Part shown: positions 2,499 through 23,427 of the stretch, one piece after another | Layout of the letters: each line of letters opens with the position of its first letter | Position numbering within the stretch: position 1 is the first letter of the stretch | DNA from: a virus | DNA length: 24,591 nt | Reading direction: 5' to 3' (one strand) | IMG/VR virus record: IMGVR_UViG_3300042312_000547 | Coordinates: 1 to 24,591 of that record | Notes under the pieces: model-generated | Told to the model about the DNA's origin: nothing | The model's input: only the letters and a program-made list of their open reading frames with translations | The model's database searches: none | Program-made: the position numbers and the translations under genes

Positions 2499-5400
2499 AT
2501 GCCAAGATTTTTATCGGGTCGTTCTAAAAAAACTCCACAATCTAAATTACCTGAAGATAGATATAGATATTTGTCTGTTGGTGATGCAGAGCCAAATTTA
2601 GGAGATCCTGTCTCTCCTGGAGAAACTCCACCTTCTGGGCAACAGTATCAAATTGTTTCTGTTGAGGGAAATCCCGGTGAAAGATATTGGGTTCCAATTG
2701 GTGGAGGTATAATTCCTGGATCTCTCAGTATTTTTGATGAAGATATTCTTGTAGGGGGTCCAAGTAGTACAACACAACTTAATTTTGTAGGTGCTGCAAT
2801 TAGTGCTTCTGGTACTGGAGGAGCACTACCTGGAATTGCTGTTACCATTACTGTATTTGCTCCAGGAAATACTGGAGAAATTATATTTAATAATGCTGAT
2901 GAATTTTCAACCTCTACAAAATTAACATTTGATACTGCAACAGGACTACTAAGTGCTGGAGATAAACTTAATGTCGGTGCTGGTGGAACTGTAATTACAA
3001 CAACAGGAGTAGGTTCTGTTGGAATTGGAACAGTAAATCCAACTCAAGAACTCGATTTGAACGGTGATTTAAGATTAAGAGGAACAATTTATGATTACTT
3101 TAATCAACCGGGAACTACAAATCAAATTTTTGTAAAAAATAATAGTGGTGGAATTACTTGGGTAAATCAAGAAACCATACAGGCAGGAGCTGGTGGAACA
3201 ATTGGACAAGTTCAATATCATGGTGGTACTGGATTAGTTGAAGGCGCAAGTAATTTTTATTTTGATTACACTAATAATAGAATTGGAATTGGAAGTACAC
3301 AACCAACGGTATTATTAGACGTTTTAGGGATTTCAAAATTTACTGGACAAACTGAAATCAATCTTCTTAGAGTTACTGGAGTTACGACTACCTCAACTCT
3401 TGCTGTATCTGGAACATCAACAACTCGTAATCTTTTAGTTACTGGTGTCACAACACTCGGTCTTTTAACTGGCACTAGTGCTTTTTTCACTGGTATTGTG
3501 ACTGCCGCAAAATTTATTGGTGCTATTGATGTAACAAATTTATATGTAAGTGGAGTTTCAACATTTAAAGGAAAAGTTAATGTTGATAATGATTTAGGAG
3601 TCACTGGACTAACTACAACTGAAAATCTACAAGTATATCAATCAACAACTTTAAACAGAATAAATGCATCAGGAGTTTCAACATTTAGTTCTCAAGTTAA
3701 TATTAACAACTTAAATGTTACTGGTGTAGGAACCTTTGATAATATTAAACTTGATGCAAATACTGTCAGTACAGTATCTGGAAATTTAATCCTAGATTCA
3801 ACTGCTGGTACAACACAAATTAATGATGCGGTATTTGTAAATGATACAACTCAATCTAATAATAAAGATACTGGTTCAATTGTCACTCAAGGAGGAGTTG
3901 GAATTGAATTAAATTTAAATGTTGGTGGGACTTCTAATTTCACAGGAATTTCTACTTTTGTTGGACAGATTGAATTAGATTCATCTTTAAAGGATGTTTA
4001 TAATAATGTAGGAACTGCTGGGTCTGTTCTAATTTCAACTGGTGCTGGAGTTTCTTGGACGCCCCCATTTGCTGCTGGTGTTCAAGGTATTCAAGGTCGT
4101 CAAGGAATTCAAGGTACACAGGGTACACAGGGTACACAGGGTACTCAAGGTATTCAAGGTCGTCAGGGTATTCAAGGAACTCAAGGAACTCAAGGTCAAC
4201 AGGGTACTCAAGGGCAACAAGGTACTCAGGGAATTCAGGGTACTCAGGGTCAACAGGGTATTCAAGGAATCTCTGGAACTATTGGTGCTCAAGGTATTCA
4301 AGGTAGACAGGGTATTCAAGGCACTCAAGGTCAACAGGGTACTCAAGGTCAACAGGGTACTCAAGGTCAACAGGGTACTCAAGGTCAACAGGGTACTCAG
4401 GGAACTCAAGGTATTCAAGGAATCTCTGGGACTATTGGTGCTCAAGGTATTCAAGGTCGTCAAGGAATTCAAGGTACACAGGGTACACAGGGTACACAGG
4501 GTACTCAAGGTCAACAGGGTACTCAAGGTCAACAGGGTACTCAGGGTCAACAGGGTGTTCAAGGAATCTCTGGAACTGGTAATCAAGGACTTCAAGGTAC
4601 TCAAGGTCAACAAGGCACTCAAGGTCAACAAGGTACTCAAGGAATCTCTGGAACTGGTAATCAAGGACTTCAAGGTACTCAAGGTCAACAAGGTACTCAA
4701 GGTCAACAAGGTATTCAAGGAATTTCTGGGACTGTTGGTGGTGCAGGTGCTCAAGGTATTCAGGGAATTAAGGGAGAACAAGGCGTTCAAGGAATCTCTG
4801 GAACTGGTAATCAAGGACTTCAAGGTACTCAAGGTACTCAAGGTATTCAAGGTATTCAAGGAATTGCAGGTGTTGTAGAAGCAGCTACACCATCTACAAT
4901 TACTCGCACCAGATTTACTGCAACTTCAGGGCAAACTACTTTTAATGTTACATATACTCCCAATTATATTCAAGTATATCTAAATGGTTCTCATTTGGAT
5001 ACAACCGAATATACCGCAACTAATGGGACTACAGTAGTTCTTTCTACTGGAGCAAGTCTAAATGATATTATAGAAGTGGTTGTCTATGATCTTGGAAATT
5101 ATGTTGCAGGTCTTCAAGGTACTCAAGGTATTCAGGGTACTTCAAGTGGAATTACTGGCATTACCATTCAAGAAGAGGGTTCTACTGTAGGAACTGAACT
5201 TGGAATTACAACCGTTAATTTTGTCGGTACATCAGTCACCGCAACGAGTCCATCTGCAGGAACCGCAAATATTACAGTTACCGCAGCATCAAATATTACT
5301 GTAACTCAAACTGGATATGGTTGTGCAAATCCAATTTCAGTCACAAATGGTAGTAATATTGGCATTGGATCAACCAGTAATGCTTATGGTAGAAGGTTTA

Positions 5401-5975
5401 TTCAAACTGCAGAACCAACGGGAGTGTGTGATGGTGACATTTGGTATGATACTAGTGGTGGTACTACTGGTGGTAATACTCCGGCAGGAACTGTCATTTA
5501 CTATGCTGCCTCTGCTGCCCCTACGGGATACTTAAAGGCAAATGGTGCCTCATTATCCACAACAACTTATGCCACATTATTTGCGGCAATTGGTTATACT
5601 TTTGGGGGAAGTGGAGCATCTTTCAATCTTCCGGACTTAAGAAACAAATTCGCAGTTGGTTCTGAAAGTCTTTATGCTTTAGCAGCGACCGGTGGCAGTG
5701 CTGATGCCACTTTGGTTTCTCACAGTCATACTGGAACCACAGGTAATGATAGTCCAGATCATAGTCACCAAGTAACAATTGAATATGACCAATCTGGTGG
5801 TAGTGGATTTCCAAAACCATTACCTGGTGGTAATAGATATCCTTCAAGTACTATTACTACTAGTGGTGCATCAATTAGGCACCAACACAATTTTACAACA
5901 TCTGCAGAAGGTGCATCAGCAACCAATGCAAATCTTCCACCATACTTAGCACTTCTTCCCTGTATTAAATACTAA
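2499..5975 (+). CDS. Tail fibre with Gly-X-Gln collagen-like stalk and tail-collar/HxH tip
   Basis: A 1158-residue protein in several parts. Residues ~1-520 hold an N-terminal region and beta repeats of the G-V-S-T-F / N-L-x-V-T-G-V type. A hinge at ~505-525 (GAGVSWTPP) resembles the hinge of the upstream fibre. Residues ~528-790 form a collagen-like stalk of Gly-X-Gln triplets with almost no proline. A beta domain follows, then a short second patch of G-T-Q-G-I-Q-G. The C-terminal ~170 residues look like a phage tail-collar domain (A-P-T-G-Y-L, then FNLPDLRNKFAVG). The tip has three H-x-H pairs (SHSH, DHSH, RHQH) like the metal-binding tips of T4-type short and long fibres. The role is inferred as a trimeric receptor-binding fibre. 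It lies 2 bases after the previous gene. Long DNA repeats in the stalk make length variation between relatives likely. Confidence 0.9.
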   Translation: MPRFLSGRSKKTPQSKLPEDRYRYLSVGDAEPNLGDPVSPGETPPSGQQYQIVSVEGNPGERYWVPIGGGIIPGSLSIFDEDILVGGPSSTTQLNFVGAAISASGTGGALPGIAVTITVFAPGNTGEIIFNNADEFSTSTKLTFDTATGLLSAGDKLNVGAGGTVITTTGVGSVGIGTVNPTQELDLNGDLRLRGTIYDYFNQPGTTNQIFVKNNSGGITWVNQETIQAGAGGTIGQVQYHGGTGLVEGASNFYFDYTNNRIGIGSTQPTVLLDVLGISKFTGQTEINLLRVTGVTTTSTLAVSGTSTTRNLLVTGVTTLGLLTGTSAFFTGIVTAAKFIGAIDVTNLYVSGVSTFKGKVNVDNDLGVTGLTTTENLQVYQSTTLNRINASGVSTFSSQVNINNLNVTGVGTFDNIKLDANTVSTVSGNLILDSTAGTTQINDAVFVNDTTQSNNKDTGSIVTQGGVGIELNLNVGGTSNFTGISTFVGQIELDSSLKDVYNNVGTAGSVLISTGAGVSWTPPFAAGVQGIQGRQGIQGTQGTQGTQGTQGIQGRQGIQGTQGTQGQQGTQGQQGTQGIQGTQGQQGIQGISGTIGAQGIQGRQGIQGTQGQQGTQGQQGTQGQQGTQGQQGTQGTQGIQGISGTIGAQGIQGRQGIQGTQGTQGTQGTQGQQGTQGQQGTQGQQGVQGISGTGNQGLQGTQGQQGTQGQQGTQGISGTGNQGLQGTQGQQGTQGQQGIQGISGTVGGAGAQGIQGIKGEQGVQGISGTGNQGLQGTQGTQGIQGIQGIAGVVEAATPSTITRTRFTATSGQTTFNVTYTPNYIQVYLNGSHLDTTEYTATNGTTVVLSTGASLNDIIEVVVYDLGNYVAGLQGTQGIQGTSSGITGITIQEEGSTVGTELGITTVNFVGTSVTATSPSAGTANITVTAASNITVTQTGYGCANPISVTNGSNIGIGSTSNAYGRRFIQTAEPTGVCDGDIWYDTSGGTTGGNTPAGTVIYYAASAAPTGYLKANGASLSTTTYATLFAAIGYTFGGSGASFNLPDLRNKFAVGSESLYALAATGGSADATLVSHSHTGTTGNDSPDHSHQVTIEYDQSGGSGFPKPLPGGNRYPSSTITTSGASIRHQHNFTTSAEGASATNANLPPYLALLPCIKY
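4080..4870 (+). repeat. Tandem Gly-X-Gln coding repeats (collagen-like stalk)
   Basis: About 790 bp of 9-base-period coding repeat (variants of caaggtact and cagggtact) inside the fibre gene. The glycine period is interrupted three times by S-G-T-G-N-Q-G (near 4570, 4650 and 4800), which drops one residue from the triplet register. Long exact copies exist: 4082-4151 is identical to 4442-4511 (70 bp, 360 bp apart). A block beginning aaggaatctctgg recurs at 4561, 4639 and 4789. Confidence 0.95.
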
Positions 5976-7585: not shown

Positions 7586-8128
7586 ATGAGTACTTTAAAA
7601 ACTAATACAATTCAGACAGTTGCGGGGAAGACAATACTTGGTAGTACTGGAAGTATTCTTCAAGTTGTATATGGAGAGGATACGTCACAATTTGATGTGA
7701 CTGTTCTCAGATCTTATCAAGTATATTATAGTTTAAATGTTACTGCAATTGCCAATAATAGTAGATATGTTTTAGATGGATTTTTTACTGGATGGTCTGG
7801 AGTATCGTTAGGTGGTGACTTTAGGTATGGTAGATCAAGTATTGGATATTCTGTAACAATTTCAGGATCAACTACAAGAATACTTGGTGTAGATGGAATA
7901 AATGGAGATTCTTGGGCACAAACCAGTGGGGCTATTGATAGTTTTGGAAGGGTAATAGTGGGGCAAGCACTACATAGTAGACCTGTAGTTTATACTTCAA
8001 CATCTCCGGCAGGAACTTTACTAACATTCAATCTTCTTGCTGCGTCTTATGAGGTTGTACCATTAAGACTTACTACTTCAGGATTTGGACAAAAATCTGG
8101 ATTTACTATAATGGAGGTGTCAGCATGA
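7586..8128 (+). CDS. Small tail-fibre-type protein A (180 aa)
   Basis: The N-terminus MSTLKTNTIQTVAGKTIL is nearly repeated in the gene at 8487 (MSTLRTDTITTVAGKPLV), so the two are paralogues that share an attachment segment. Residues ~30-180 are different in the two and look all-beta, as expected for an exchangeable receptor-contact head. The last four bases (ATGA) overlap the start of the next gene, a putative assembly protein, suggesting translational coupling. No signal peptide. The role is inferred as a small side fibre or decoration protein. Confidence 0.75.
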   Translation: MSTLKTNTIQTVAGKTILGSTGSILQVVYGEDTSQFDVTVLRSYQVYYSLNVTAIANNSRYVLDGFFTGWSGVSLGGDFRYGRSSIGYSVTISGSTTRILGVDGINGDSWAQTSGAIDSFGRVIVGQALHSRPVVYTSTSPAGTLLTFNLLAASYEVVPLRLTTSGFGQKSGFTIMEVSA

Positions 8129-11903: not shown

Positions 11904-14900
11904 ATGCCTCTGAATAAGTTAGACAATTTCATTAAGAATACTGAAGGTCGTATTCTTTATGTAAATCCAAACGACCTTGATTCCACAGACAGTATTGAAA
12001 ATCAAGGTAATTCACTTGCTCGCCCTTTTAAAACAATTCAGAGAGCACTTTTAGAAGCAGCAAGATTTTCGTATGTAAGGGGAAGCAACAACGATTTAAC
12101 TGAAAAAACTACGATTCTTCTATTTCCAGGAGAACATGTAGTTGATAACCGTCCTGGTTGGGCAATTTATAATAATGGAGGAGCAAAAGCAGTTAGTCGT
12201 GCAGGATCAGAATCCGTAGCATCAACTGTATTTTCACTTGGACTAGATTCCAACTTTGATTTAAATCAGGAAGACAATATTCTCTACAAGTTTAACAGTT
12301 TTTATGGTGGTGTTGTAGTACCTAGAGGAACTTCTATTGTTGGTCTTGACTTAAGAAAGACTAAGATTCGTCCAAAGTATGTTCCTAACCCAACTGATTC
12401 TGTAGTTGATAAGGCAGCAATTTTTAGAATCACCGGTGCCTGTTATTTCTGGCAGTTCTCACTTTTTGATGGAGATTCCAGTGGATTAGTTTATACAAAT
12501 CCGGACAATTTTGGAGAAGTTTATCAGTCAACACCAAATTTCTCTCACCATAAACTTACTTGCTTTGAGTTTTGTGATGGTGTAAATCGAGTTGGAAATT
12601 ATGGTCTGACTGATCTTGATATGTATTATAGCAAGGTCTCAAATGCTTATAATACTTATCGTGATATTGATCAAAAGTTCCCATCTAATTCTGATGGATT
12701 TGCGAAGAGAAATCCTGAATGGGAAATTGTTGGAGCTTTTGCATCTGACCCAATTGAAATCAGCACAATTGTTTCTGGAAATGGTTTTGTAGCTACCTCG
12801 GTTGTTACAGTAACAACCGCTACGGAACATGGATTAAATGTTGGAACACCAATTAAGATTAAAGATGTGGGTGCATCGAGTGAGCCATTTGCAGATAAGT
12901 ATAATCTTTCAACAACAGTTCAGACCGTAACAAGTCCTACAACTTTCACATATCTTCTTCCCGCACTAGAGTCATATCCAACAATCGATCCAAGTCCTAC
13001 TTCTTCTGGATCAACAGTTACTGTAGAGACTGATACAGTTTCTGGTGCTTCTCCTTATATCTTCAACTGCTCTCTACGTTCAGTATGGGGTATGAATGGA
13101 CTTCATGCTGATGGAAGTAAGGCATCAGGATTTAGAAGTACAGTTGTCGCTCAGTTTACTGCTGTATCTCTACAAAAAGATGACCGTGCATTTGCAAAAT
13201 ATGATAAGTCATCGAGATCATATCAAGTCGTACCTTATACTTCAGTTTATGGATCGACTCTTCCTCAGGGTGCTTCTCAAACAGACTCGGCAAAAGTTTA
13301 CCATCTAGATTCTGAAGCAATCTATCGTCAAGGATGGGAGACTTCTCACATTAAAGTCACGAATGATGCTTTTATTCAGATTGTTTCTGTGTTTGCGATT
13401 GGATTTAATAAGCACTTTGACGCAGAAAGTGGTGGTGATGCATCAATTACAAACTCTAACTCAAACTTTGGTCAGATCTCACTAAACTCTTCTGGATTTA
13501 AAAAGGAAGCATTTGAAAAAGATAACAAAGCATTTATTACATCAATTATTCCACCGAGAGCAGTTGATGAAACAGAAGAACAAATTGATTGGGTTTCAAT
13601 CGACGTTGGATTGACAACATCAGTATCTATTGCTGAAGGAACCACCAAACATCTATATCTTTATGGTTATAATACAATTGACAATCCACCATCTGCAATC
13701 ACTCAAGGATACAGAATTGGTGCAAGACTGGATGATAAATTGCATTTTGTGGGTGCAGGAGTTACATACTCTGCGACTATCTACATGTGTAATAATGAAA
13801 TTAGTGAGACTGGATTTACCGCTGCCTCAGGAACTACAAGTTCTGTTAAGTTATATACTGCCACAACATCACCTTCAAGTGGACTTACAACATCATTTGT
13901 AATTGGATCAAACAATCTCTTAACTGGTGAGAAAGTTAAAATTATAAGTGACGTTGGAGATCTTCCAGAAAATATTGATGCTCATGAAACTTATTACGTG
14001 ATTAATGCTGGAGACAATAATACTATTAGACTTGCATCTTCTTTTGGTAACTCTCTTACAAATCAGGCAATTACTGTTTCGGGAGGAACAAATCTTAGCA
14101 TTTTAAGTCGGGTTTCTGATAAAAATGCTGGAGAACTTGGTTCACCCATTCAATTCGATCCCGCTAATAGTAACTGGTTTATTCATGTAAATTCTAGTAA
14201 TGAAATTTATAATGCACTTCTTGCTGGCGGAACTGCAACATATGGCGAAACAACCGACGTTACTTTCGTCAAAAGAATCTCCGATGAAAGAAGTTTGGAT
14301 GAGAAACTCTATAAGTTTAGAGTCGTAGTACCAAAAGAACTTTCAAATGCTAAAGATCCAGAAGTTGGATTTATTATTCAGGAAAGTAGCAGTACTGGAT
14401 TTGTAAATGATACTGATGCTACAAGAACTAGTATTGGGAGAACTGATTATAATTACAATAAGAATACAAGATTTATTTCAACCTGTTCAGTAAGTTCCGG
14501 TACAATTACCGCAATTGCTGAAAAACCTCATAATCTGGAAGTTGGTGATATCATAATTGTCAATAATGTGAAGAGTAATAATAATACTGTTGGTACTGCA
14601 AATTCTGGATATAACGGAAGATTTTCAGTTACTGGAGTTACAAATGCAAATACATTCCAGTATTCTACAACAGATACAGATGGAAGAGTTAGGAATCCAG
14701 GAACATTCTCAAGTAATACATCTGACAGAACAACAAGTCTTCCACGTTTTGAGAAGAATGATTGGCTTGGTAATTTGTTTGTTTATAGAAATGAGGTTAT
14801 TTCTCCGTACATTGAAAATAAGCAGGATGGAATCTATCATCTCTATGTTTTAAACTCAAACAATCAAGTTCAAGAACAATTTACAAATCTCAAGTTCGGA

Positions 14901-17351
14901 CAAGTTCCAGCAGATCTTTATCCTCAATTAGATAGAGACAACGCAAGTTCAAATCCACCAGCAGCAAAAACATATGCAAAACGTGCTCCACTTGGCGGAG
15001 TCATAACAAACGATCTTAAGAAGAGTATTACTAGAGAAACTGCAGATTTAACACTCAAAGAAGTTGGAGTCGGTCTGACAATTTCTTTAGTTTCATCTTC
15101 ACCGAGTTCTGCTACAATTACTTTCCCAAGATTTCATGGTTTCTCTGGAATTGTAACTGGGTCGCTAACACAAGGAGCTGGTTATAATCCAGGAACATAT
15201 CAGAATGTCAAACTCTTAACTGGAGGTTCGTCAGGATCTTGGAACGGAGCGACTGCAAGAGTTGTCGTTGATGGTAGTGGTGCTGTCTCATTATCTGAAA
15301 TTGTATCTCCAGGATCTGGATATTCTGCCGATGGATTGTACTTTGATGAAAGCATAATTGGTGCTGGAAACGGAGTTGCGAGATATACAATCACAGCAGC
15401 AGGAATTTCTACAAATATTGGTGATGTAGTTCAATTTACGGGAGCAGGAACTACATCTGATGCTTATCACCGCATTACTTCGGTTCCCTCATCTACAACT
15501 ATTTCAATTGCCAGAACCACTGGAGATCCAACAATCACAAACGCTCAATATGCTTTTGTGATTGGACCTTCAATTCAAATCACTACATCAAATTACACTG
15601 CATCAACTAAGACTACAACCTTTGTAACAACTACAGCGCACGGTCTTGTTTCTGGAAATAGATTCCGTGTAACTGATTCGAGTAATAATAATCTTGGAGA
15701 TTATCTTGTAAGCGATGTAGTAAGTGTAACTTCATTCACTGCGATTACGAATCAATCCCTTTCTGCTGCTAATGGATGGATTCTGAAGCATGGTATGTCT
15801 TCAAATGAGGGTGTTTCTGACCGCACATCTGAAAATATTGGAACAAGACAAGTTACTTTTTATGATGGTGAAAGATTTAGACTTACATCTGCTTTAACTT
15901 CCGGAACTACTCTTAACTTTGCCACTTATACTGGTATTGGAACTGCACAAAGATTGCCACTTGGTTCTTATATCCAGATAGGTAATGAGATAATGAGAGT
16001 TGCTAGCATCAGTGATGGATCTTCGGCAACAATTATTCGTGGTATATTCGGAACAGTTCAAGAAAATCATGCGATAAATTCTCTGATTCGTAAAATTAAT
16101 CCACTTGCAGTTGAATTTCGCAGACCTTCAATTGTTCGTGCTTCGGGGCACACCTTTGAATATCTTGGATATGGTCCAGGAAACTACTCAACTGGTCTTC
16201 CTCAAGTTCAGGTTAAGACACTTTCTGAAGAAGAGCAATTCTTCTCACAAGCACAAGAAAGATCTTGTGGAGTTGTAGTTTATACTGGTATGAATAATAA
16301 TGGTGATTTCTTTAATGGAAACACTAAAACAGTTGCGGCAAGTGGAGAAGTTGTTTCTTATGATATTCCAACTCCAACTGTAACTGGTGAGAGTGGTGGT
16401 AAGTTGAGTGTGGTATTTGACGAAGTTTCAATTAAAGAAAGACTTGTAGTTGAGGGTGGTGTTTCTGGAACTATTCTATCTCAGTTTGATGGTCCGGTAA
16501 CTTTCAATCAAGATGTAAGAATTAAAGCTCTTACAACTATTAGTAAAGTTACAAAAATTACAGATCCTACCGAATCAAATTCAACAACATCTGGTTCTTT
16601 AATCGTATCAGGTGGAGTCGGAATTGGTAAGAATCTAAATGTTAGTGGAAACTTAAATGTTGATGGATCTGTAGATTTTGGTTCTACTTTAAATGTAACT
16701 GGAGAAGCAACTTTTAATGGAGGTGTTATCTTAACTAGTAACTTAAGATTTGATGATAGTGACCATTTATATTTTGGAAATGGTAGTGACTTAGACATTT
16801 ATCATGATGGTTCTAATAGTTATATTGATGATCGTGGAACAGGTGCTTTAAATATACGTGGAAACGCTGCTGTCAATATTCAGAAATATACAGGTGAAAG
16901 TATGATTATTGCCACTGCCGATGGTGCAGTACAACTTTATTATGATAATTCTAATAAACTAGAAACAACAAACGATAATACTTATGGGGGATCTGGTGGA
17001 GTTATAGTAACTGGAGATCTTATAGCGACTAATGATGTTGTTGCGTTCGCTTCTGATGAAAGACTTAAAGAAAATATTCAATTACTTGAAAACGCTCTAG
17101 ATAAAGTAATGAATATTTCTGGATTTACTTATAATTTTAACGAAGTTGGACGTTCACTTGGATTTGATTCATCCATAACTCACGTTGGAGTATCTGCTCA
17201 ACAAGTTCAAAAAGTTCTTCCCGAAGCTGTTGTTCCTTGTCCAGCAAGTGATGAATATTTAACTGTAAAATATGATAAAATAGTACCACTTCTAATTGAA
17301 GCGATTAAAGAACTTAAAGCAGAAATTGAAGAATTAAAAAAATTAAAATAA
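11904..17351 (+). CDS. Giant beta-helical tail fibre with C-terminal S74 intramolecular chaperone (1815 aa)
   Basis: Residues ~1-560 look like a pectate-lyase-type beta-helix domain related to the partial fibre at 1-1824 (shared ITNSNSNFG near residue 512). Residues ~560-1550 alternate all-beta modules, several with a T-x-T-T-x-x-H-G-L-x-x-G unit and G-S-G-Y strands. Residues ~1550-1700 are fibre repeats (SGGVGIGKNLNVSGNLNVDG; DLDIYHDGSNSYIDD). The C-terminal ~99 residues form an S74-type chaperone domain, starting at F-A-S-D-E-R-L-K-E-N-I (Ser1717 with the dyad partner lysine nearby). It ends in a leucine-rich coiled coil, IEAIKELKAEIEELKKLK. In known S74 proteins the domain drives trimerisation and is then cleaved off in cis. 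This is the largest gene of the window and probably a long side fibre. Confidence 0.9.
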   Translation: MPLNKLDNFIKNTEGRILYVNPNDLDSTDSIENQGNSLARPFKTIQRALLEAARFSYVRGSNNDLTEKTTILLFPGEHVVDNRPGWAIYNNGGAKAVSRAGSESVASTVFSLGLDSNFDLNQEDNILYKFNSFYGGVVVPRGTSIVGLDLRKTKIRPKYVPNPTDSVVDKAAIFRITGACYFWQFSLFDGDSSGLVYTNPDNFGEVYQSTPNFSHHKLTCFEFCDGVNRVGNYGLTDLDMYYSKVSNAYNTYRDIDQKFPSNSDGFAKRNPEWEIVGAFASDPIEISTIVSGNGFVATSVVTVTTATEHGLNVGTPIKIKDVGASSEPFADKYNLSTTVQTVTSPTTFTYLLPALESYPTIDPSPTSSGSTVTVETDTVSGASPYIFNCSLRSVWGMNGLHADGSKASGFRSTVVAQFTAVSLQKDDRAFAKYDKSSRSYQVVPYTSVYGSTLPQGASQTDSAKVYHLDSEAIYRQGWETSHIKVTNDAFIQIVSVFAIGFNKHFDAESGGDASITNSNSNFGQISLNSSGFKKEAFEKDNKAFITSIIPPRAVDETEEQIDWVSIDVGLTTSVSIAEGTTKHLYLYGYNTIDNPPSAITQGYRIGARLDDKLHFVGAGVTYSATIYMCNNEISETGFTAASGTTSSVKLYTATTSPSSGLTTSFVIGSNNLLTGEKVKIISDVGDLPENIDAHETYYVINAGDNNTIRLASSFGNSLTNQAITVSGGTNLSILSRVSDKNAGELGSPIQFDPANSNWFIHVNSSNEIYNALLAGGTATYGETTDVTFVKRISDERSLDEKLYKFRVVVPKELSNAKDPEVGFIIQESSSTGFVNDTDATRTSIGRTDYNYNKNTRFISTCSVSSGTITAIAEKPHNLEVGDIIIVNNVKSNNNTVGTANSGYNGRFSVTGVTNANTFQYSTTDTDGRVRNPGTFSSNTSDRTTSLPRFEKNDWLGNLFVYRNEVISPYIENKQDGIYHLYVLNSNNQVQEQFTNLKFGQVPADLYPQLDRDNASSNPPAAKTYAKRAPLGGVITNDLKKSITRETADLTLKEVGVGLTISLVSSSPSSATITFPRFHGFSGIVTGSLTQGAGYNPGTYQNVKLLTGGSSGSWNGATARVVVDGSGAVSLSEIVSPGSGYSADGLYFDESIIGAGNGVARYTITAAGISTNIGDVVQFTGAGTTSDAYHRITSVPSSTTISIARTTGDPTITNAQYAFVIGPSIQITTSNYTASTKTTTFVTTTAHGLVSGNRFRVTDSSNNNLGDYLVSDVVSVTSFTAITNQSLSAANGWILKHGMSSNEGVSDRTSENIGTRQVTFYDGERFRLTSALTSGTTLNFATYTGIGTAQRLPLGSYIQIGNEIMRVASISDGSSATIIRGIFGTVQENHAINSLIRKINPLAVEFRRPSIVRASGHTFEYLGYGPGNYSTGLPQVQVKTLSEEEQFFSQAQERSCGVVVYTGMNNNGDFFNGNTKTVAASGEVVSYDIPTPTVTGESGGKLSVVFDEVSIKERLVVEGGVSGTILSQFDGPVTFNQDVRIKALTTISKVTKITDPTESNSTTSGSLIVSGGVGIGKNLNVSGNLNVDGSVDFGSTLNVTGEATFNGGVILTSNLRFDDSDHLYFGNGSDLDIYHDGSNSYIDDRGTGALNIRGNAAVNIQKYTGESMIIATADGAVQLYYDNSNKLETTNDNTYGGSGGVIVTGDLIATNDVVAFASDERLKENIQLLENALDKVMNISGFTYNFNEVGRSLGFDSSITHVGVSAQQVQKVLPEAVVPCPASDEYLTVKYDKIVPLLIEAIKELKAEIEELKKLK

Positions 17352-17358
17352 CTAAAGT

Positions 17359-18072
17359 ATGAAATTTGAATATCTTAATATTTTTCCAACTACAATTTAT
17401 GTTGGGGAAATTGAAAATCATTTAAAATACAAGAAAATGTTTTATGATAAAATATATGAAAAATTCGAGTATGATCAAATAAATGAAAAAACCAAATCAG
17501 TATATACTACAAGTGAAAATGTAGGTAATCCATTTATCCATTTGGAACCCGATCTAGATCCTCTTTTTGGGGAAATATGTGGTCATGTTAAAAATTATTT
17601 ACAAAATGTTTTATTAACTAAAGATATATTTGACATTGTTATCATGAAAACTTGGTTATCTAGATCACAGGGTTCTAATCAAGAAATTCCTTGGCATATA
17701 CATTCACCAAGTCATTTTTCTTTCATATATTATTTGAATGTACCAAAAGATTCTCATATGATTCAATTTTCAAATGATAATACTCCAAATGCTGTTTTTT
17801 CTGGATTATTCAATGATGATTGTGAAGATGAAGAATTAAATATGGTAAAAGAATATAATGATTTAAATTGTGAAATTTTCTATATGCATCCCAATGAAGG
17901 AAACATGATACTATTTCCCAGTAAACTTTCCCATTCAACGAAATCGATTTCTGATAATTTTAATGGTGAGCGATTGGGAATTTCTGGCGATATTATATTA
18001 GTCTTAAAAGAAGAGTATCTTTCTTATTCTCATGGTTATATGCATGAAAAATATTGGAAAAAATATAAATAG
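17359..18072 (+). CDS. 2-oxoglutarate/Fe(II) oxygenase-like protein (237 aa)
   Basis: The sequence P-W-H-I-H-S-P-S-H-F-S-F-I-Y-Y-L-N-V-P holds the first metal ligands (H113, H115, an HxH variant of HxD). The C-terminal N-E-G-N-M-I-L-F-P-S-K-L-S-H-S-T contains the distal histidine (H192). R205 in N-G-E-R-L-G-I-S-G-D would bind the 2-oxoglutarate carboxylate. This is the layout of the small phage and cyanobacterial 2OG-Fe(II) oxygenases with an HxH triad. The expected activity is hydroxylation of an unknown protein or small-molecule substrate. It starts 7 bases after the giant fibre and is followed by the glycine-rich adhesin-like gene, suggesting that a virion protein is the substrate. No membrane or secretion signal. 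Confidence 0.8.
   Translation: MKFEYLNIFPTTIYVGEIENHLKYKKMFYDKIYEKFEYDQINEKTKSVYTTSENVGNPFIHLEPDLDPLFGEICGHVKNYLQNVLLTKDIFDIVIMKTWLSRSQGSNQEIPWHIHSPSHFSFIYYLNVPKDSHMIQFSNDNTPNAVFSGLFNDDCEDEELNMVKEYNDLNCEIFYMHPNEGNMILFPSKLSHSTKSISDNFNGERLGISGDIILVLKEEYLSYSHGYMHEKYWKKYK
18064..18071 (+). promoter_or_regulatory. T4-type late promoter box TATAAATA
   Basis: An exact box overlapping the TAG stop of the oxygenase gene (18070-18072), only 10 bases before the next ATG. The resulting leader would be very short. Confidence 0.6.
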
Positions 18073-18081
18073 AATAAAAAA

Positions 18082-19107
18082 ATGCCTACGCCTTCATCAG
18101 GACCAATAAGATTTACAGATATTCGTAATGAATTTGGACCTAATAGTATTTTTAATATTCAAGGACTTGGTGCATATAGAATAAATCAAACCGTAGGTTC
18201 TCTTAATAATTTACCTTTAGATGTTGGTATTCCACAATCAGGACCTATCGGATTTAGCAGTTTTTACAATAAGCGTCTTAATGTTGTCGTTGATTATGCA
18301 TCAATTCCAGCTGGAACCGTAAGATTAAACGCAAGATCTACATATGATTTAAATACGTCTAACATTGTTGTAATTGGTGGATTTAAAGGAAGACCATCTA
18401 ATCCACAAAATATTAGATTACTTATCAATTTAAATACTTTTATTGGATCTGCTCCAGGAGCTATCACTAATTGTGCTATAAGAACTGGAGATTGGAGAGA
18501 TAATAATTCAAATGCTTTAACAACAGTAAAGTTTGAGATAGGAACTTTGGGGCAGGTATATGGTGCTGGTGGTGATGGAGGGAACGGTGTTAATTCTGGA
18601 GCCAGGGCTGGGTCTGGATCAAATGGAACTAGTGCAATAGGAATTGATTATCCTACTGAAATTGTAAATTATGGATATATTCAGTGTGGAGCTGGTGGAG
18701 GTGGAGCTGGAGCATATAGGCGTAGAAATGTTAGAGTTGGTAAAAAAAGAGCTGTTGACTCACTTTCTACTGGTGGTGGAGGAGGTGGAGGAGCTGGGTA
18801 TCCATTTTCAAGAGGTGGAATTGCTCTCCAAAATGCTTTTGGGAGAGGAACAAATGGTTCAAATGGATCTTCGGGAAGTTATCGAGTAGCAGGTGCTCGT
18901 GGATTGGGTGGAAATGAGGCAGGAGCCGGCGGCGCCGGTGGTCAAATTGGCAACGGAGATATCGGAGGATCCACTGCCAACCAAGCAGGTGGTTTAGGAG
19001 GATCTCTTGGATATTCAATTGCAATTGCTCCAGGAGGAACTGGCACATCACTCTCTAATTTTGGTGTAGTAATTGGTTCTATTGTTGGCAATACTACCCC
19101 AACATAA
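18082..19107 (+). CDS. Glycine-rich adhesin-like tail protein (341 aa)
   Basis: Residues ~1-60 (starting MPTPSSGPIRFTDIRNEFG) form a repeat-like attachment segment: two S-G-P-I-x-F units (near residues 6 and 53). Residues ~60-155 are beta-like. Residues ~157-315 contain many polyglycine runs (GAGGDGGNG, GAGGGGAGA, GGGGGGGAGYPF, GAGGAGGQIGNG). Such runs, separated by variable loops, recall the polyglycine-II core of gp38-type adhesins that tip T-even long fibres. Homology is not claimed. The adhesin idea is supported by its place amid fibre genes and between two oxygenase genes. A late box lies 10 bases upstream, and the stop is inside another. Confidence 0.75.
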   Translation: MPTPSSGPIRFTDIRNEFGPNSIFNIQGLGAYRINQTVGSLNNLPLDVGIPQSGPIGFSSFYNKRLNVVVDYASIPAGTVRLNARSTYDLNTSNIVVIGGFKGRPSNPQNIRLLINLNTFIGSAPGAITNCAIRTGDWRDNNSNALTTVKFEIGTLGQVYGAGGDGGNGVNSGARAGSGSNGTSAIGIDYPTEIVNYGYIQCGAGGGGAGAYRRRNVRVGKKRAVDSLSTGGGGGGGAGYPFSRGGIALQNAFGRGTNGSNGSSGSYRVAGARGLGGNEAGAGGAGGQIGNGDIGGSTANQAGGLGGSLGYSIAIAPGGTGTSLSNFGVVIGSIVGNTTPT

Positions 19108-19110
19108 ATA
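19103..19110 (+). promoter_or_regulatory. T4-type late promoter box CATAAATA
   Basis: Contains the adhesin stop codon (19105-19107); the next ATG is 11 bases downstream. Confidence 0.6.
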
Positions 19111-19121
19111 AATAACAAAAA

Positions 19122-19466
19122 ATGAATTTTATTTGTAAAATTGTAGATTATAAACCAGAAGAAAACTTAGTGATTGTTAGGTTCTGCCGTCAAAATGCAC
19201 CAAAATCTATTGATAAGTATCCATCGTATGCAGTTAGTTGTGATAAATTAGACTTTAGTGAATATGAATTTTTTGTTCATAGTCTTATAATGTGTGGTAA
19301 AGATATAATTATAAAACAACTCGAAGAAGAAAAATCTTTAGAATCTAATTCAAACACAGAAAAAACTTATTCTACTAATATTTTTGATAATTTAGATAAA
19401 ATTTTATCAATGGATTACAAAGAAATTATATTCGATAATCAAAATATGAAAAAACTGGAGTTGTAA
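19122..19466 (+). CDS. Hypothetical protein (114 aa)
   Basis: The N-terminal half (MNFICKIVDYKPEENLVIVRF, then YPSYAVSCDKLDFSEYEFFVHSL) looks like a small beta-barrel or OB-like fold. The C-terminal half is charged and Asn/Glu-rich with helix-forming residues. The stop is one base before the next ATG. Low G+C matches the surrounding tail genes. I do not recognise the family. Its position between an adhesin-like gene and a second oxygenase suggests a tail-associated or accessory role only by context. Confidence 0.6.
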   Translation: MNFICKIVDYKPEENLVIVRFCRQNAPKSIDKYPSYAVSCDKLDFSEYEFFVHSLIMCGKDIIIKQLEEEKSLESNSNTEKTYSTNIFDNLDKILSMDYKEIIFDNQNMKKLEL

Positions 19467-19467
19467 T

Positions 19468-19962
19468 ATGAGTAGTCCTAAGTGTAAAAGATTTCACAGA
19501 GAATGTGATGAATTTAGTATATGTGTAAATATTGGTGAACAGGGGTATGTATTAGCAGAACATTATAATGAAAGATTTACTTCTTTTTATTATTTGATAT
19601 ATGGATCTGGAAAATTTGGAAGATTATTTGATTCGAATTACTTAAATCTATGTGAAAAAAAAATTATTGATGTTCAAGATTATTTTTATGATGAAGTTAT
19701 TTTTCATGCTTTAGAAGATTTTCATTTAATCGGATTTAATACTTATGATAAAAATGTAAAATGGAAATCTAGATTAATTAATTTAGATGAAAAAAAATTA
19801 ATTGTATCCGACACAAAATCTTTTTTAATATGTTTTAATGGAAATCCAGTAGTGAATGATAAAAAATTTAAAAGATATGATTATTCTAAACTTAATCCAA
19901 ATAAAAATTATGAAATTAATTTGAGTGATAATGATGTTTTGGCTTTATTTACTAAAGTTTAA
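19468..19962 (+). CDS. Hypothetical protein, possibly cupin-like (164 aa)
   Basis: The sequence is mostly beta-prone (E-H-Y-N-E-R-F-T-S-F-Y-Y-L-I-Y-G-S-G-K-F-G-R-L, then F-H-A-L-E-D-F-H-L-I-G-F-N-T-Y). Its glycine-turn pattern and histidines could fit a double-stranded beta-helix (cupin) fold. No complete metal-binding triad is convincing. It begins one base after the preceding stop and ends 6 bases before the second oxygenase gene, so the three small genes probably form one unit. Very A+T-rich codon use. Function unknown. Confidence 0.55.
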   Translation: MSSPKCKRFHRECDEFSICVNIGEQGYVLAEHYNERFTSFYYLIYGSGKFGRLFDSNYLNLCEKKIIDVQDYFYDEVIFHALEDFHLIGFNTYDKNVKWKSRLINLDEKKLIVSDTKSFLICFNGNPVVNDKKFKRYDYSKLNPNKNYEINLSDNDVLALFTKV

Positions 19963-19968
19963 TTTGGT

Positions 19969-20454
19969 ATGATTACAAAAGACGATTTAAAATATCTTTA
20001 TGAATGGGTTAAAAATAAAAATTTTTATTTGAAAAAGGAACCAAGTTCTTTAGGAGTACCTACAAAACCTCTTTTATTTTGTCCTTTGAAATTAAGTATC
20101 ATATCTCCTGTAATTAGAAGGTCTCTTTTGGATGAAAAAGTATATGAAATTTTATCTAATCCAGAAATTTTATTTTGTGGTTATTTAGTTTTTCAAAATA
20201 ATACTGAACATGGTCCTCATAAAGATTTAAACATATACATTGAAGAGTATAAACGAATTCAGATTCCTTTAAAAACTCCAAATCAAGATTTATGCTATAT
20301 GATGTGGAAAGGAGAAAAAGTTTTGTGGGTGGAAGGAAAACCCCAAGTCTTTGAGGTAATGGATTATGTTCATGAAGCCTATAATTATTCAGAAGAGGAT
20401 ATGAAATTTCTGTTCCTTGATGTTAAGAAAGATACTGAGATATATCTCAAATAA
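19969..20454 (+). CDS. Aspartyl/asparaginyl beta-hydroxylase-like 2OG oxygenase (161 aa)
   Basis: The order H-G-P-H84-K-D86 (metal-binding HxD), R-I-Q-I-P-L (R96), W-V-E-G-K-P-Q-V-F-E-V (turn), then D-Y-V-H135-E-A-Y-N-Y-S and F-L-F-L-D-V matches the Asp/Asn beta-hydroxylase-type cupin. There, HxD and the distal His hold iron, and the H-x-x-x-N-x-S segment lies in the active-site strand. It is about 160 aa, a minimal domain. The usual arginine after the N-x-S turn is replaced by lysine (K146), so activity is unproven. It is a different subfamily from the oxygenase at 17359. The expected substrate class is an Asp or Asn side chain of a protein, perhaps a tail protein nearby. Confidence 0.75.
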   Translation: MITKDDLKYLYEWVKNKNFYLKKEPSSLGVPTKPLLFCPLKLSIISPVIRRSLLDEKVYEILSNPEILFCGYLVFQNNTEHGPHKDLNIYIEEYKRIQIPLKTPNQDLCYMMWKGEKVLWVEGKPQVFEVMDYVHEAYNYSEEDMKFLFLDVKKDTEIYLK

Positions 20455-20457
20455 ATA
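20450..20457 (+). promoter_or_regulatory. T4-type late promoter box AATAAATA
   Basis: Overlaps the stop of the oxygenase gene (20452-20454), 19 bases before the ATG of the next fibre. Confidence 0.65.
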
Positions 20458-20476
20458 ACTAAAAATCGTATGTAAA

Positions 20477-22075
20477 ATGGCGAATATAAGAAAGTCATTT
20501 AATCTTAGAAATGGCGTCCAAGTTGATGATGATAATTTCATTGTAAATCAAAATGGTCTAGTTGGTATAGGAACGAGTATTCCTCAAGCTTTTTTAGATG
20601 TTAGAAGCGTACAAGATACTGATGCTGTAAAAATTGTTGGGCATACAACGGTAACTACTTTTTATTCTGGAATAGCAACTGTAGGAATTTTATCGATAAC
20701 TCAATCTTTAAAAGTTTCTGGACCAGCATATGCCTCAACATTTTATGGTAGTGCTGCAGGTTTAACCAGTATATACGCAATCGCTGTTGATGGATGGTAT
20801 GTAGATAGTGGAAATTCTTCTATTTCAACAATATTTAAAGTTGGTATAGGCACCACAAATCCACAATATTCTCTTCAAATTGGAGATCCTGACTCTACTG
20901 AGGGTATTTCTTTTAATGCAATAACAGGAGACATTGTATCAACTGGTGGAATTGCTGCCACAAGTTTCTCTGGAGATTTAGATGCTGGATATTTAACAGG
21001 AACTATTTCAAATGATAGACTTCCTGTTCTCGAGAATTCAAAAATTCCAAATAACTTCCAAGTTACTGGAATTATTACAGCGTTAGGTACATTTAAAGGT
21101 AATTTAGTTGGAATTGCTACAACAGCGATAGATCTAATTCCCAATGCTAGAGTGAGTATAGATCACATTGCTTCGAATACTTCAGACATTGGAGTTTCAA
21201 CAGTTTCTACGAGACTTAGATCTGCAGCAATTGGTGTAGGAACAAATTCTCCATATTCTGCTATTCATGTTGTAGGGTCATCTAGTACAAGTTTACATGT
21301 TACTGCCGCAACTGAATCTACAATTACACTAGGTAGAAGTTTAAGTCCAACAGGGAATACTGGAGGTCTTAAATTTGGAAATACCTCTGGATCATATCTT
21401 TATAGCACTACAAAAACACTAGATATTGTTAACTATGATACTGGAAATTTAAATTATTATCTTCATTATGGTGCTTCTGGCATAGGAACTGGCAATTTTA
21501 ACTGGATTTATGCCCCAGATTCATCAAATCCTTTGATGACTTTAACATATGGTGGAAGACTTGGTATTGGAATTACAAATCCATCAAATACTTTAGAAGT
21601 TATTGGTAGTTTTAGAGCTACAAACAATTCTACTTTTGGTGGAAACATAACTCTCACCACTGGAAATTTAATTCTTAGTAGCGGATCAATAAATGGAAAT
21701 GTAACTGGCAATGTAACTGGTAATTTAACTGGAAATGTCAATGCACTTACTGGAATATCAACTTTCAATGACCTTGAATCATCATTAACAAATACTGGGC
21801 AGTTATTAATTGGAACTAATTCTTCAAACTACTTAATTCAAACTTCAACTGGTAACGATACATTTTTTGTATCTGGTGATGGTTCAGTTGGAATTGGAAC
21901 TACACAGAGTATTGACGCAAGTTTAATTTTTAGTGTTGTTGGTGAATCTGGATTTATGGGAGATTTAAATGTTGGAGAGAATCAATCTCAGGGATTAGTT
22001 CTTACATCTCCAAATGGAACTAGGTATAGATTAATTGTTAGTAACGCCGGAATTTTAACCACAACTGCAGCATAA
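20477..22075 (+). CDS. Tail-fibre protein with GIGTxNP repeats (532 aa)
   Basis: Multiple fibre repeats of the form V-G-I-G-T-x-x-P-x-x-x-L-x-V occur at residues ~28-42, ~122-137, ~360-375 and ~470-480, each followed by beta strands. A G-N-V-T-G-N-V-T-G-N-L-T-G-N-V run near residue 410 is a short tandem repeat. The C-terminus ends in RYRLIVSNAGILTTTAA, often seen at the end of cyanophage fibres. It contains no S74 domain. A late box lies upstream and the intrinsic terminator downstream, so it is the last gene of the late tail block. It probably trimerises as a side fibre. Confidence 0.85.
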   Translation: MANIRKSFNLRNGVQVDDDNFIVNQNGLVGIGTSIPQAFLDVRSVQDTDAVKIVGHTTVTTFYSGIATVGILSITQSLKVSGPAYASTFYGSAAGLTSIYAIAVDGWYVDSGNSSISTIFKVGIGTTNPQYSLQIGDPDSTEGISFNAITGDIVSTGGIAATSFSGDLDAGYLTGTISNDRLPVLENSKIPNNFQVTGIITALGTFKGNLVGIATTAIDLIPNARVSIDHIASNTSDIGVSTVSTRLRSAAIGVGTNSPYSAIHVVGSSSTSLHVTAATESTITLGRSLSPTGNTGGLKFGNTSGSYLYSTTKTLDIVNYDTGNLNYYLHYGASGIGTGNFNWIYAPDSSNPLMTLTYGGRLGIGITNPSNTLEVIGSFRATNNSTFGGNITLTTGNLILSSGSINGNVTGNVTGNLTGNVNALTGISTFNDLESSLTNTGQLLIGTNSSNYLIQTSTGNDTFFVSGDGSVGIGTTQSIDASLIFSVVGESGFMGDLNVGENQSQGLVLTSPNGTRYRLIVSNAGILTTTAA

Positions 22076-22101
22076 GTCCTAACCACTTTTCAAACTGTCA
22101 C

Positions 22102-22126
22102 AAGGGGGTTCCAGGACCCCCTTTTT
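22102..22126 (+). terminator. Strong intrinsic terminator
   Basis: An 8-bp stem aagggggt/accccctt around a 6-base loop (tccagg), followed by a run of T. It lies 26 bases after the 532-aa fibre stop and marks the end of the late tail block. Confidence 0.9.
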
Positions 22127-22128
22127 GC

Positions 22129-22137
22129 TGTTATAAT
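22129..22137 (+). promoter_or_regulatory. Extended -10 promoter tgtTATAAT for the helicase
   Basis: A perfect -10 with the tgn extension, starting two bases after the terminator's T run. The matching -35 would fall in the terminator loop and is poor (ttccag). A start near 22144 would leave only about 6 bases before the ATG at 22150. Confidence 0.6.
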
Positions 22138-22149
22138 ATTCCTATCGTT

Positions 22150-23427
22150 ATGAGACAGATGACTCAACTCCGTCCTCACCAACAGACTGCTCTGGACTCT
22201 CTCCAGCAGCACAGCAAAGGTATTGTAGTGTTCCCCACTGGCGGCGGCAAGACCAACGTGGGTATCTTTGACGCTATGGAGCAATTCAAGTCTGATGCTC
22301 CTAAGACCGTTGTGGTGGTCTCTCCTCGCATTCTGCTTGCCGAGCAGTTGTCTTCTGAATATCTTGAGTTTATCACTAACGCTGCTGTTCTTCACGTTCA
22401 TAGTGGTGAGACGCACCACTTCAGCAGCACCAATCCTGATGTAATTCACAACTGGTCGCGTCGTGCCTACAAGCATCAACTGATTTTCACGACTTATAAT
22501 TCTCTTCAGCGTCTTCAGCAGGCAGACATTCAGGTAGATACCATTTACTTCGATGAGGCACACAACTCTGTTCGTCGTGACTTCTTCCCTGCCGTAGAGC
22601 ACTTTGCTGGTGAGGCAGAACGCTGCTATTTCTTCACCGCAACTCCTAAGTATTCTGCTACGGTCTCCAAACCTGGTATGAATGATACTGAGGTTTACGG
22701 TAGCATCATCGCTAAGGTTCCTGCTCCTCAACTGGTGCAGAATGGTTATATCATTCCTCCTAAGGTAATTTGCAAGCAGATGCGACTTTCGGTCAAGGGT
22801 GAGGACATTGCCCAACGGGACTGTGAGTATCTACTTGACCTTATCCTTAATCCCAAGCAGGTTACTGTAACTGAGGGTCTGATTGATTACTCAAACTCTG
22901 TGGATAAAATCCTGATCTGTGCCAAGACTACCAAGAATATTATTCAACTTCTGTCTGAAACTGACTTTGCCGAACAACTGGCAGAAGAAGGTTATTCCGT
23001 GATGCACATTACTGCCAAGCACGGTGCCTTTATTGACGGTCAGAAAGTCAACCGTGAGGTGTTCTTTGACACTCTGAATGAGTGGGGTAAGGATGCCGAC
23101 AAGAAGTTTGTGGTTCTTCACCATAGCATTCTGGCAGAAGGCATTAACATCTCTGCTCTGGAAGCGGTTGTGTTCATGCGTTCTATGGACATCGTGGGCA
23201 TCGGTCAAACGGTCGGTCGGACGCTGCGTCTGCACCCCGCAGATGCCGCTGGAATCCGCTCTGGTGCCCTTCAGGCGGGTGCTCTAGAGTCCTACACCAA
23301 ATCCTATGGTCTGGTGGTCTGCCCGACCTTTGACAAGGCATCTACGAGCACCGCACAGAAGGTCCAGAACGTGGTGGATATCATCTTCCAGCAGGGCGAC
23401 GTTGCCGTCAGCATTGTCAGGCGCTGA
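22150..23427 (+). CDS. DEAH-box superfamily II helicase (425 aa)
   Basis: Motifs appear in order: motif I F-P-T-G-G-G-K-T (29-35), D-E-A-H (135-138), F-T-A-T-P (162-166, motif III) and motif VI Q-T-V-G-R-T-L-R (353-360). N-terminal L-R-P-H-Q-Q-T-A-L is the start of a helicase domain of the UvsW/RecG/type III restriction class. The expected activity is ATP-dependent unwinding or branch migration. Its size and context fit phage recombination or replication helicases, but it is not assigned to uvsW. A second in-frame ATG is at 22159. Codon use is clearly more G+C-rich than the fibre genes. An extended -10 promoter precedes it. Confidence 0.9.
   Translation: MRQMTQLRPHQQTALDSLQQHSKGIVVFPTGGGKTNVGIFDAMEQFKSDAPKTVVVVSPRILLAEQLSSEYLEFITNAAVLHVHSGETHHFSSTNPDVIHNWSRRAYKHQLIFTTYNSLQRLQQADIQVDTIYFDEAHNSVRRDFFPAVEHFAGEAERCYFFTATPKYSATVSKPGMNDTEVYGSIIAKVPAPQLVQNGYIIPPKVICKQMRLSVKGEDIAQRDCEYLLDLILNPKQVTVTEGLIDYSNSVDKILICAKTTKNIIQLLSETDFAEQLAEEGYSVMHITAKHGAFIDGQKVNREVFFDTLNEWGKDADKKFVVLHHSILAEGINISALEAVVFMRSMDIVGIGQTVGRTLRLHPADAAGIRSGALQAGALESYTKSYGLVVCPTFDKASTSTAQKVQNVVDIIFQQGDVAVSIVRR

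Follow-up and report, generated by a model that had tools for sequence, protein, structure and literature searches.

The adhesin locus and its two oxygenases

The virus record IMGVR_UViG_3300042312_000547 is a 24.6 kb stretch bearing tail-fibre genes (24,591 nucleotides, analysed whole and referred to here as the window), in which the gene of a glycine-rich tail adhesin is flanked by genes for two different 2-oxoglutarate (2OG) oxygenases, OxyA and OxyB. Together with two further genes, p114 and cup164, these form a cassette that is conserved as an operon in many uncultured relatives, where a lysine in one adhesin loop and the cassette co-vary. This shared arrangement suggests that the virus decorates its own receptor-binding protein. 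The features concerned are as follows:

11904..17351, plus strand: S74 tail fibre of 1815 amino acids (aa) with a C-terminal Peptidase_S74 chaperone (phrog_529 tail fibre, 1419.9 bits; PF13884, 2.8e-17), the first gene of the unit considered
17359..18072, plus strand: OxyA, PF13759 2OG-Fe(II) oxygenase, 237 aa
18082..19107, plus strand: glycine-rich gp38-like tail adhesin, 341 aa
18742..18759, plus strand: adhesin loop residues K221, K222 and D226, candidate modification site
19122..19466, plus strand: p114, small protein of 114 aa conserved with the adhesin cassette
19468..19962, plus strand: cup164, 164 aa, bicupin fold
19969..20454, plus strand: OxyB, PF05118 Asp/Asn-hydroxylase-like oxygenase, 161 aa
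20477..22075, plus strand: tail protein (phrog_3269, 7.1e-56), which adjoins the cassette in most relatives
22102..22123, plus strand: intrinsic-terminator-like hairpin with a 9 bp stem and a T tail, which ends the unit

All genes from the S74 fibre to the tail protein at 20477 read in one direction and are separated by only 7, 9, 14, 1, 6 and 22 bases. The hairpin at 22102-22123 was the sole plus-strand terminator-like site detected within 17200-22300, and the late-promoter pattern TATAAATA was not enriched in the window. The unit thus holds the tail fibre, the adhesin and the tailoring proteins, which are probably co-expressed late in infection. The phage is most likely a marine T4-like cyanophage.

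The first-pass annotation of this stretch had placed an HxH-type oxygenase and an Asp/Asn beta-hydroxylase-like one on either side of an adhesin-like gene, and this description was confirmed by profile searches. OxyA matched PF13759 (E 2.7e-13, 50.6 bits; curated cut-off 27) and, in PHROGs, phrog_81 '2OG-Fe(II) oxygenase' (4.6e-29). Its metal site (H113-x-H115 and H192) and the distal R205 are invariant in eight orthologues and likewise in the mixed alignment A2. OxyB matched PF05118 (E 8e-9, 36 bits; curated cut-off 22.6) and phrog_25655 (5.7e-44); H84-x-D86, R96 and H135 are invariant across 41 relatives, as is K41. The AlphaFold2 (AF2) model of OxyB has a predicted local distance difference test score (pLDDT) of 94.6, and its top Foldseek matches were L-proline cis-4-hydroxylase and human AspH (AspH E 9e-7), with template modelling (TM) scores of 0.65-0.76 on the query. 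By E-value the nearest fold is that of the free-proline hydroxylase.

OxyB shares with these two enzymes the fold, the His-x-(Asp/Gly)...His arrangement and an arginine like R688 of AspH. It differs from AspH in having HxD for HxG, mostly Gln in place of H690, the invariant K41, no tetratricopeptide repeat (TPR) domain and no equivalent of R735. A lysine where arginine is usual had also been remarked on in the first-pass annotation; this residue, K146, is real in the OxyB of the window, but it is present in only 2 of the 41 relatives and does not amount to a conserved feature of the active site. Aligned with AspH, the OxyB sequence can shift by one or two columns, and the columns able to match the AspH arginine are 144-146, which hold D/P, M and E/M/I (Met at position 145 in 38 of 41) and include no conserved basic residue. 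K146 was rejected as a substitute 2OG anchor because it is not conserved. OxyB is therefore described here as a member of the PF05118 fold family, for which neither the use of 2OG nor Asp/Asn specificity can be assumed.

The two genes between the adhesin and OxyB are less familiar. P114 had no match in Pfam or in the sequences of the PDB, and eleven relatives were aligned. The AF2 model of cup164 (pLDDT 94.1) matched cupins such as HutD (TM 0.64), BacB and pirin in Foldseek, indicating a bicupin fold, and no metal-binding His is conserved in its alignment. Both proteins may be helpers, adaptors or chaperones.

Conservation of the cassette in uncultured relatives

IMG/VR was scanned with alignments of OxyB, of the adhesin N-terminus and, as a third and independent scan, of OxyA orthologues alone. 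When OxyA, OxyB, the adhesin and cup164 were used as single-sequence queries, nothing was returned, and for cup164 the alignment-based scan was likewise unsuccessful. The OxyB scan and the separate adhesin scan converged on the same loci. The OxyA-only scan retrieved 77 orthologues, or 43 after dereplication at 90% identity, and the conservation of the gene block, a check proposed with the first-pass annotation, could be read from these: an adhesin lies within 5 kb in 36 of the 43 loci, another 2OG oxygenase is present in 37, cup164 in 34 and p114 in 32. Among the seven OxyA loci in which no adhesin was detected, L028 and L128 retain p114 and cup164, and L028 begins inside the cassette.

One common order, which is subject to rearrangements, starts with the fibre and a tail protein and continues with the adhesin, a PF13640 oxygenase, OxyA, p114, cup164, more oxygenases, OxyB and a helicase; OxyA precedes the adhesin in the window and in about two dozen of the retrieved loci. 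Members of PF13640, PF13759 and PF05118 were recognised by Pfam within one operon, and in the adhesin scan oxygenases of several families, namely PF13759 and at least two PF13640 groups, directly adjoin the adhesin, sometimes on the opposite strand. Several cassettes hold six to eight oxygenases, a count that includes one HxD...H family, oxyC17, recognised by its motif and not by Pfam. Some cassettes also encode a methyltransferase (PF13489, 3.9e-11) or a sulfotransferase (PF00685, 1.1e-4, just at the cut-off; PF03567, 2.6e-7). Sulfotransferase genes lie inside the adhesin cassette at L055:4794-5549, L060:4349-5176, L106:13976-14686 and L145:12703-13419, and on one long cyanophage contig the adhesin cassette includes a DUF3431 gene (PF11913, 2.3e-13; L085:12681-13292).

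The grouping of oxygenase and adhesin genes exceeds chance. On eight long contigs (1.09 Mb in total), 14 of the oxygenases other than OxyA are no more than 10 kb from the adhesin and 18 are further away, which corresponds to densities of 0.089 and 0.019 per kb respectively, a 4.6-fold difference (p=6e-5). Six of these eight contigs bear a photosystem reaction-centre gene, and the group is thus mainly cyanophage; no such gene was found in the window itself.

Relatives of both enzymes also occur in cultured phages. OxyA falls within the broad group of cyanophage 2OG-Fe(II) oxygenases (phrog_81, PF13759/PF13640), and its cultured relatives are distant (22-31% identity over the alignment) and belong to cyano- and pelagiphages; two pelagiphages carry them close to tail genes. 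One pattern-based scan of genome contigs detected no cellular relative of OxyA. The gene labelled 'D/B-b-hydroxylase DiO' in the Prochlorococcus phages P-HM1 and P-HM2 belongs to the OxyB family (phrog_25655), as does a copy labelled hypothetical in MED4-213. These three proteins are 42-46% identical to OxyB and share its motifs, but their genes lie between nrdB/glycine dehydrogenase and hli/psbA and not by an adhesin, and they form a separate branch of the tree. A single branch (support 97/84) splits the OxyB proteins of cassettes from those outside them, with the OxyB of the window on a long branch on the cassette side; the location of the gene is thus inherited and not random.

The adhesin and its conserved lysine

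The adhesin is 30% glycine after residue 140 and matched phrog_11439 (tail fibre, 5e-9). Its score against Pfam GP38 (PF05268) fell below the cut-off (14.7 bits against 25; E 0.028), and its anatomy is of the gp38 type, with poly-glycine runs split by variable loops and a gene near that of a tail fibre; it is therefore regarded as resembling a gp38 adhesin in anatomy without being assigned to the Pfam family, and is probably the tail tip that recognises the host. In phage PP01, gp38 touches its receptor through loops borne on a poly-glycine II core, and the same is presumed for S16 (PMC12892980). Like the T2/S16/PP01-like adhesins, the window adhesin appears to be a short tail-tip protein with long poly-glycine runs and loops; unlike them, it has an N-terminal domain of its own, common to uncultured marine phages, retains a Lys and an Asp in one loop, and is linked to oxygenases. 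Its only relatives among phage records were from two single-cell marine viruses.

Among 46 adhesins from OxyA-positive loci, a loop between two poly-glycine runs carries a Lys (K222 in the window) in 45 and an Asp four residues further on (D226) in 40, and these are the only charged positions so conserved in the whole glycine-rich domain. The loop is otherwise variable (DPDKNTRD, SDPNKSKTD, TDKRRDRR, VGKKRAVD and others). Automated parsing picks the wrong loop in L139 and L103, and the motif is present in both by another parse. The overall D/N/P/K content of the glycine-rich domain did not differ between OxyA-positive and OxyA-negative adhesins. In one relative (L046:7441-9006) the adhesin is seemingly split at a low-complexity stretch into two frames, of 366 aa and then a poly-glycine part of 135 aa.

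In an adhesin tree built from the first 150 residues, which do not include the loop, OxyA-positive and OxyA-negative sequences are intermingled, with nine changes of OxyA label, at least four of which are forced by well-supported branches. Across this tree the Lys motif co-varies with p114/cup164: 59 adhesins have both, 11 have neither, and there are two exceptions in each direction; among these four, L053 comes from a truncated contig and L091 is a second copy of the adhesin. The association has a Fisher value of 1.4e-9, which is overstated, as the sequences are related and the motif was picked post hoc; if any Lys in the loop is counted, the value is 6e-5.

Function of the cassette and other tail genes

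We favour, at somewhat better than even odds, the reading that these genes form an operon with which a marine T4-like phage decorates its own adhesin. The adhesin would form a poly-glycine domain from which the variable loops project, and the cassette proteins would act on it when newly made, before or during tail assembly. The 2OG oxygenases (OxyA and OxyB here, up to eight in relatives) would add oxygen to loop side chains, for which the conserved K222 and D226 are the best candidate sites, and p114 and cup164 could assist them as helpers or adaptors. A sulfotransferase or methyltransferase may add to this decoration in some relatives, and the predicted outcome is an altered receptor-binding surface. 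A more specific version is put forward tentatively, as somewhat short of an even chance: that marine cyanophages have a dedicated, exchangeable cassette which hydroxylates the conserved Lys/Asp site in the loop that binds the receptor, with sulfation or methylation added in some lineages, so that chemistry and sequence together set host recognition. The proposal in the first-pass annotation that the phage hydroxylates its own tail proteins is in this way strengthened by the conserved operon, the number of oxygenases, the tailoring enzymes and the co-variation of the loop Lys, and is partly supported. What the sequences show directly is the enzyme families, the operon's conservation and the co-variation; the role of the adhesin as substrate, the chemistry and the consequence for binding are inferred.

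Several points weigh against adhesin decoration. Modification of the adhesin is a prediction, and the conserved loop Lys may itself be a binding residue. Four loci (L004, L057, L059 and L063) have the Lys motif and p114/cup164 without OxyA, and the Lys therefore tracks p114/cup164 more closely than it does OxyA. Within-contig permutation on the short adhesin contigs gave weak enrichment (p=0.13, 0.05 and 0.07), for which reason the OxyA scan, the long contigs and the co-variation of the loop are what carries the argument. Oxygenase genes lying apart from the adhesin in relatives had been named beforehand as a finding that would count against the idea, and this is the situation for OxyB/DiO and for the distant cultured relatives of OxyA, but not for most OxyA orthologues. 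The cultured OxyA relatives mostly adjoin mazG, phoH, tRNA or baseplate genes, and for 30 distinct OxyB relatives, the P-HM1, P-HM2 and MED4-213 proteins included, no adhesin cassette was detected around the gene. Because relatives of OxyB occupy other places in the genomes of cultured Prochlorococcus phages, OxyB by itself is not specific to adhesins. Furthermore, the whole OxyB/DiO family lacks an equivalent of AspH R735, the Arg that binds the C5-carboxylate of 2OG. The R735W variant of human AspH is inactive with 2OG and uses branched-chain 2-oxoacids (PMC12816917), and by analogy OxyB may have another 2OG anchor, such as the invariant K41, or may use another 2-oxoacid.

Tail-fibre regions are recombination hot spots that gather cargo, and the main rival to adhesin decoration sees the oxygenases as auxiliary metabolic genes whose targets are host metabolites, 2OG pools or nitrogen signalling and which lie near tail genes through frequent recombination only. 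Published views of phage oxygenases in general lean this way. The 2OG oxygenases of cyanophages are numerous and dispersed, and the literature assigns these abundant genes to nitrogen metabolism (PMC3037559) or to DNA repair (PMC9146016), or leaves their role open; the OxyB relatives of cultured phages, moreover, sit among hypothetical genes between glycine dehydrogenase and hli/psbA. Against this, the neighbours of OxyA are constant in most of the 43 dereplicated loci, a single change on the tree divides cassette from non-cassette OxyB, and the co-variation of an adhesin loop residue with the cassette is left unexplained. Cargo accumulation is considered unlikely.

More doubtful still is the explanation that the cassette makes a small molecule, or alters a host surface glycan that the adhesin binds, or that a shared site of action, the cell surface, accounts for the grouping of the genes. 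The sulfotransferase, methyltransferase, DUF3431 protein and oxygenases do resemble glycan or natural-product tailoring enzymes, and the nearest fold to OxyB acts on free proline, but the annotated 2OG-oxygenase cassettes yielded no recognisable gene for a carrier protein, a synthetase or sugar-nucleotide metabolism, and the loop Lys co-variation would require a separate reason. Least probable is that p114 and cup164 hold the Lys loop as its structural or chaperone partners and the oxygenases act on another virion protein, such as the S74 fibre or the collagen-like one (2499-5975): the Lys motif does follow p114/cup164 and not OxyA, cup164 has no conserved metal-binding His and the window holds a fibre with collagen-like repeats, but the oxygenases directly adjoin the adhesin more often than the fibre, and the collagen-like fibre was set aside as a substrate since its G-x-Q/T repeats offer almost no Pro or Lys to hydroxylate.

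In the literature searched, which included few subscription papers or preprints, no link between phage 2OG oxygenases and tail adhesins was found, nor any proposal of a tail role for the cyanophage enzymes. Adhesin decoration, if true for a subset of them, would give these oxygenases a testable role with a named site and mean that host recognition by phages has a chemical layer as well; for these abundant marine viruses it could also be one cause of failure when receptor binding is predicted from sequence only. Other phages are known to encode the modification of virion proteins, for example by glycosylation, and the system would for this reason not constitute a new category unless its chemistry is unusual.

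Oxygenase arrays were also seen near the tail genes of the pelagiphages HTVC023P and Mosig (L008 and L011), which carry three to four 2OG oxygenases each. Some neighbours annotated there as 'endonuclease V' look like mislabelled oxygenases, and L011:4697-5209 matches an oxygenase profile. Elsewhere in the window, the fibre at 2499-5975 has a long G-x-Q/T collagen-like repeat (GTQGTQGIQG...) that is nearly free of Pro and Lys. Three short tail-fibre-like proteins (starting at 7586, 8487 and 9325) alternate with two related proteins of 104-121 aa (phrog_9114) between 7586 and 9849, in what looks like a tandem duplication of a fibre-tip and partner pair.

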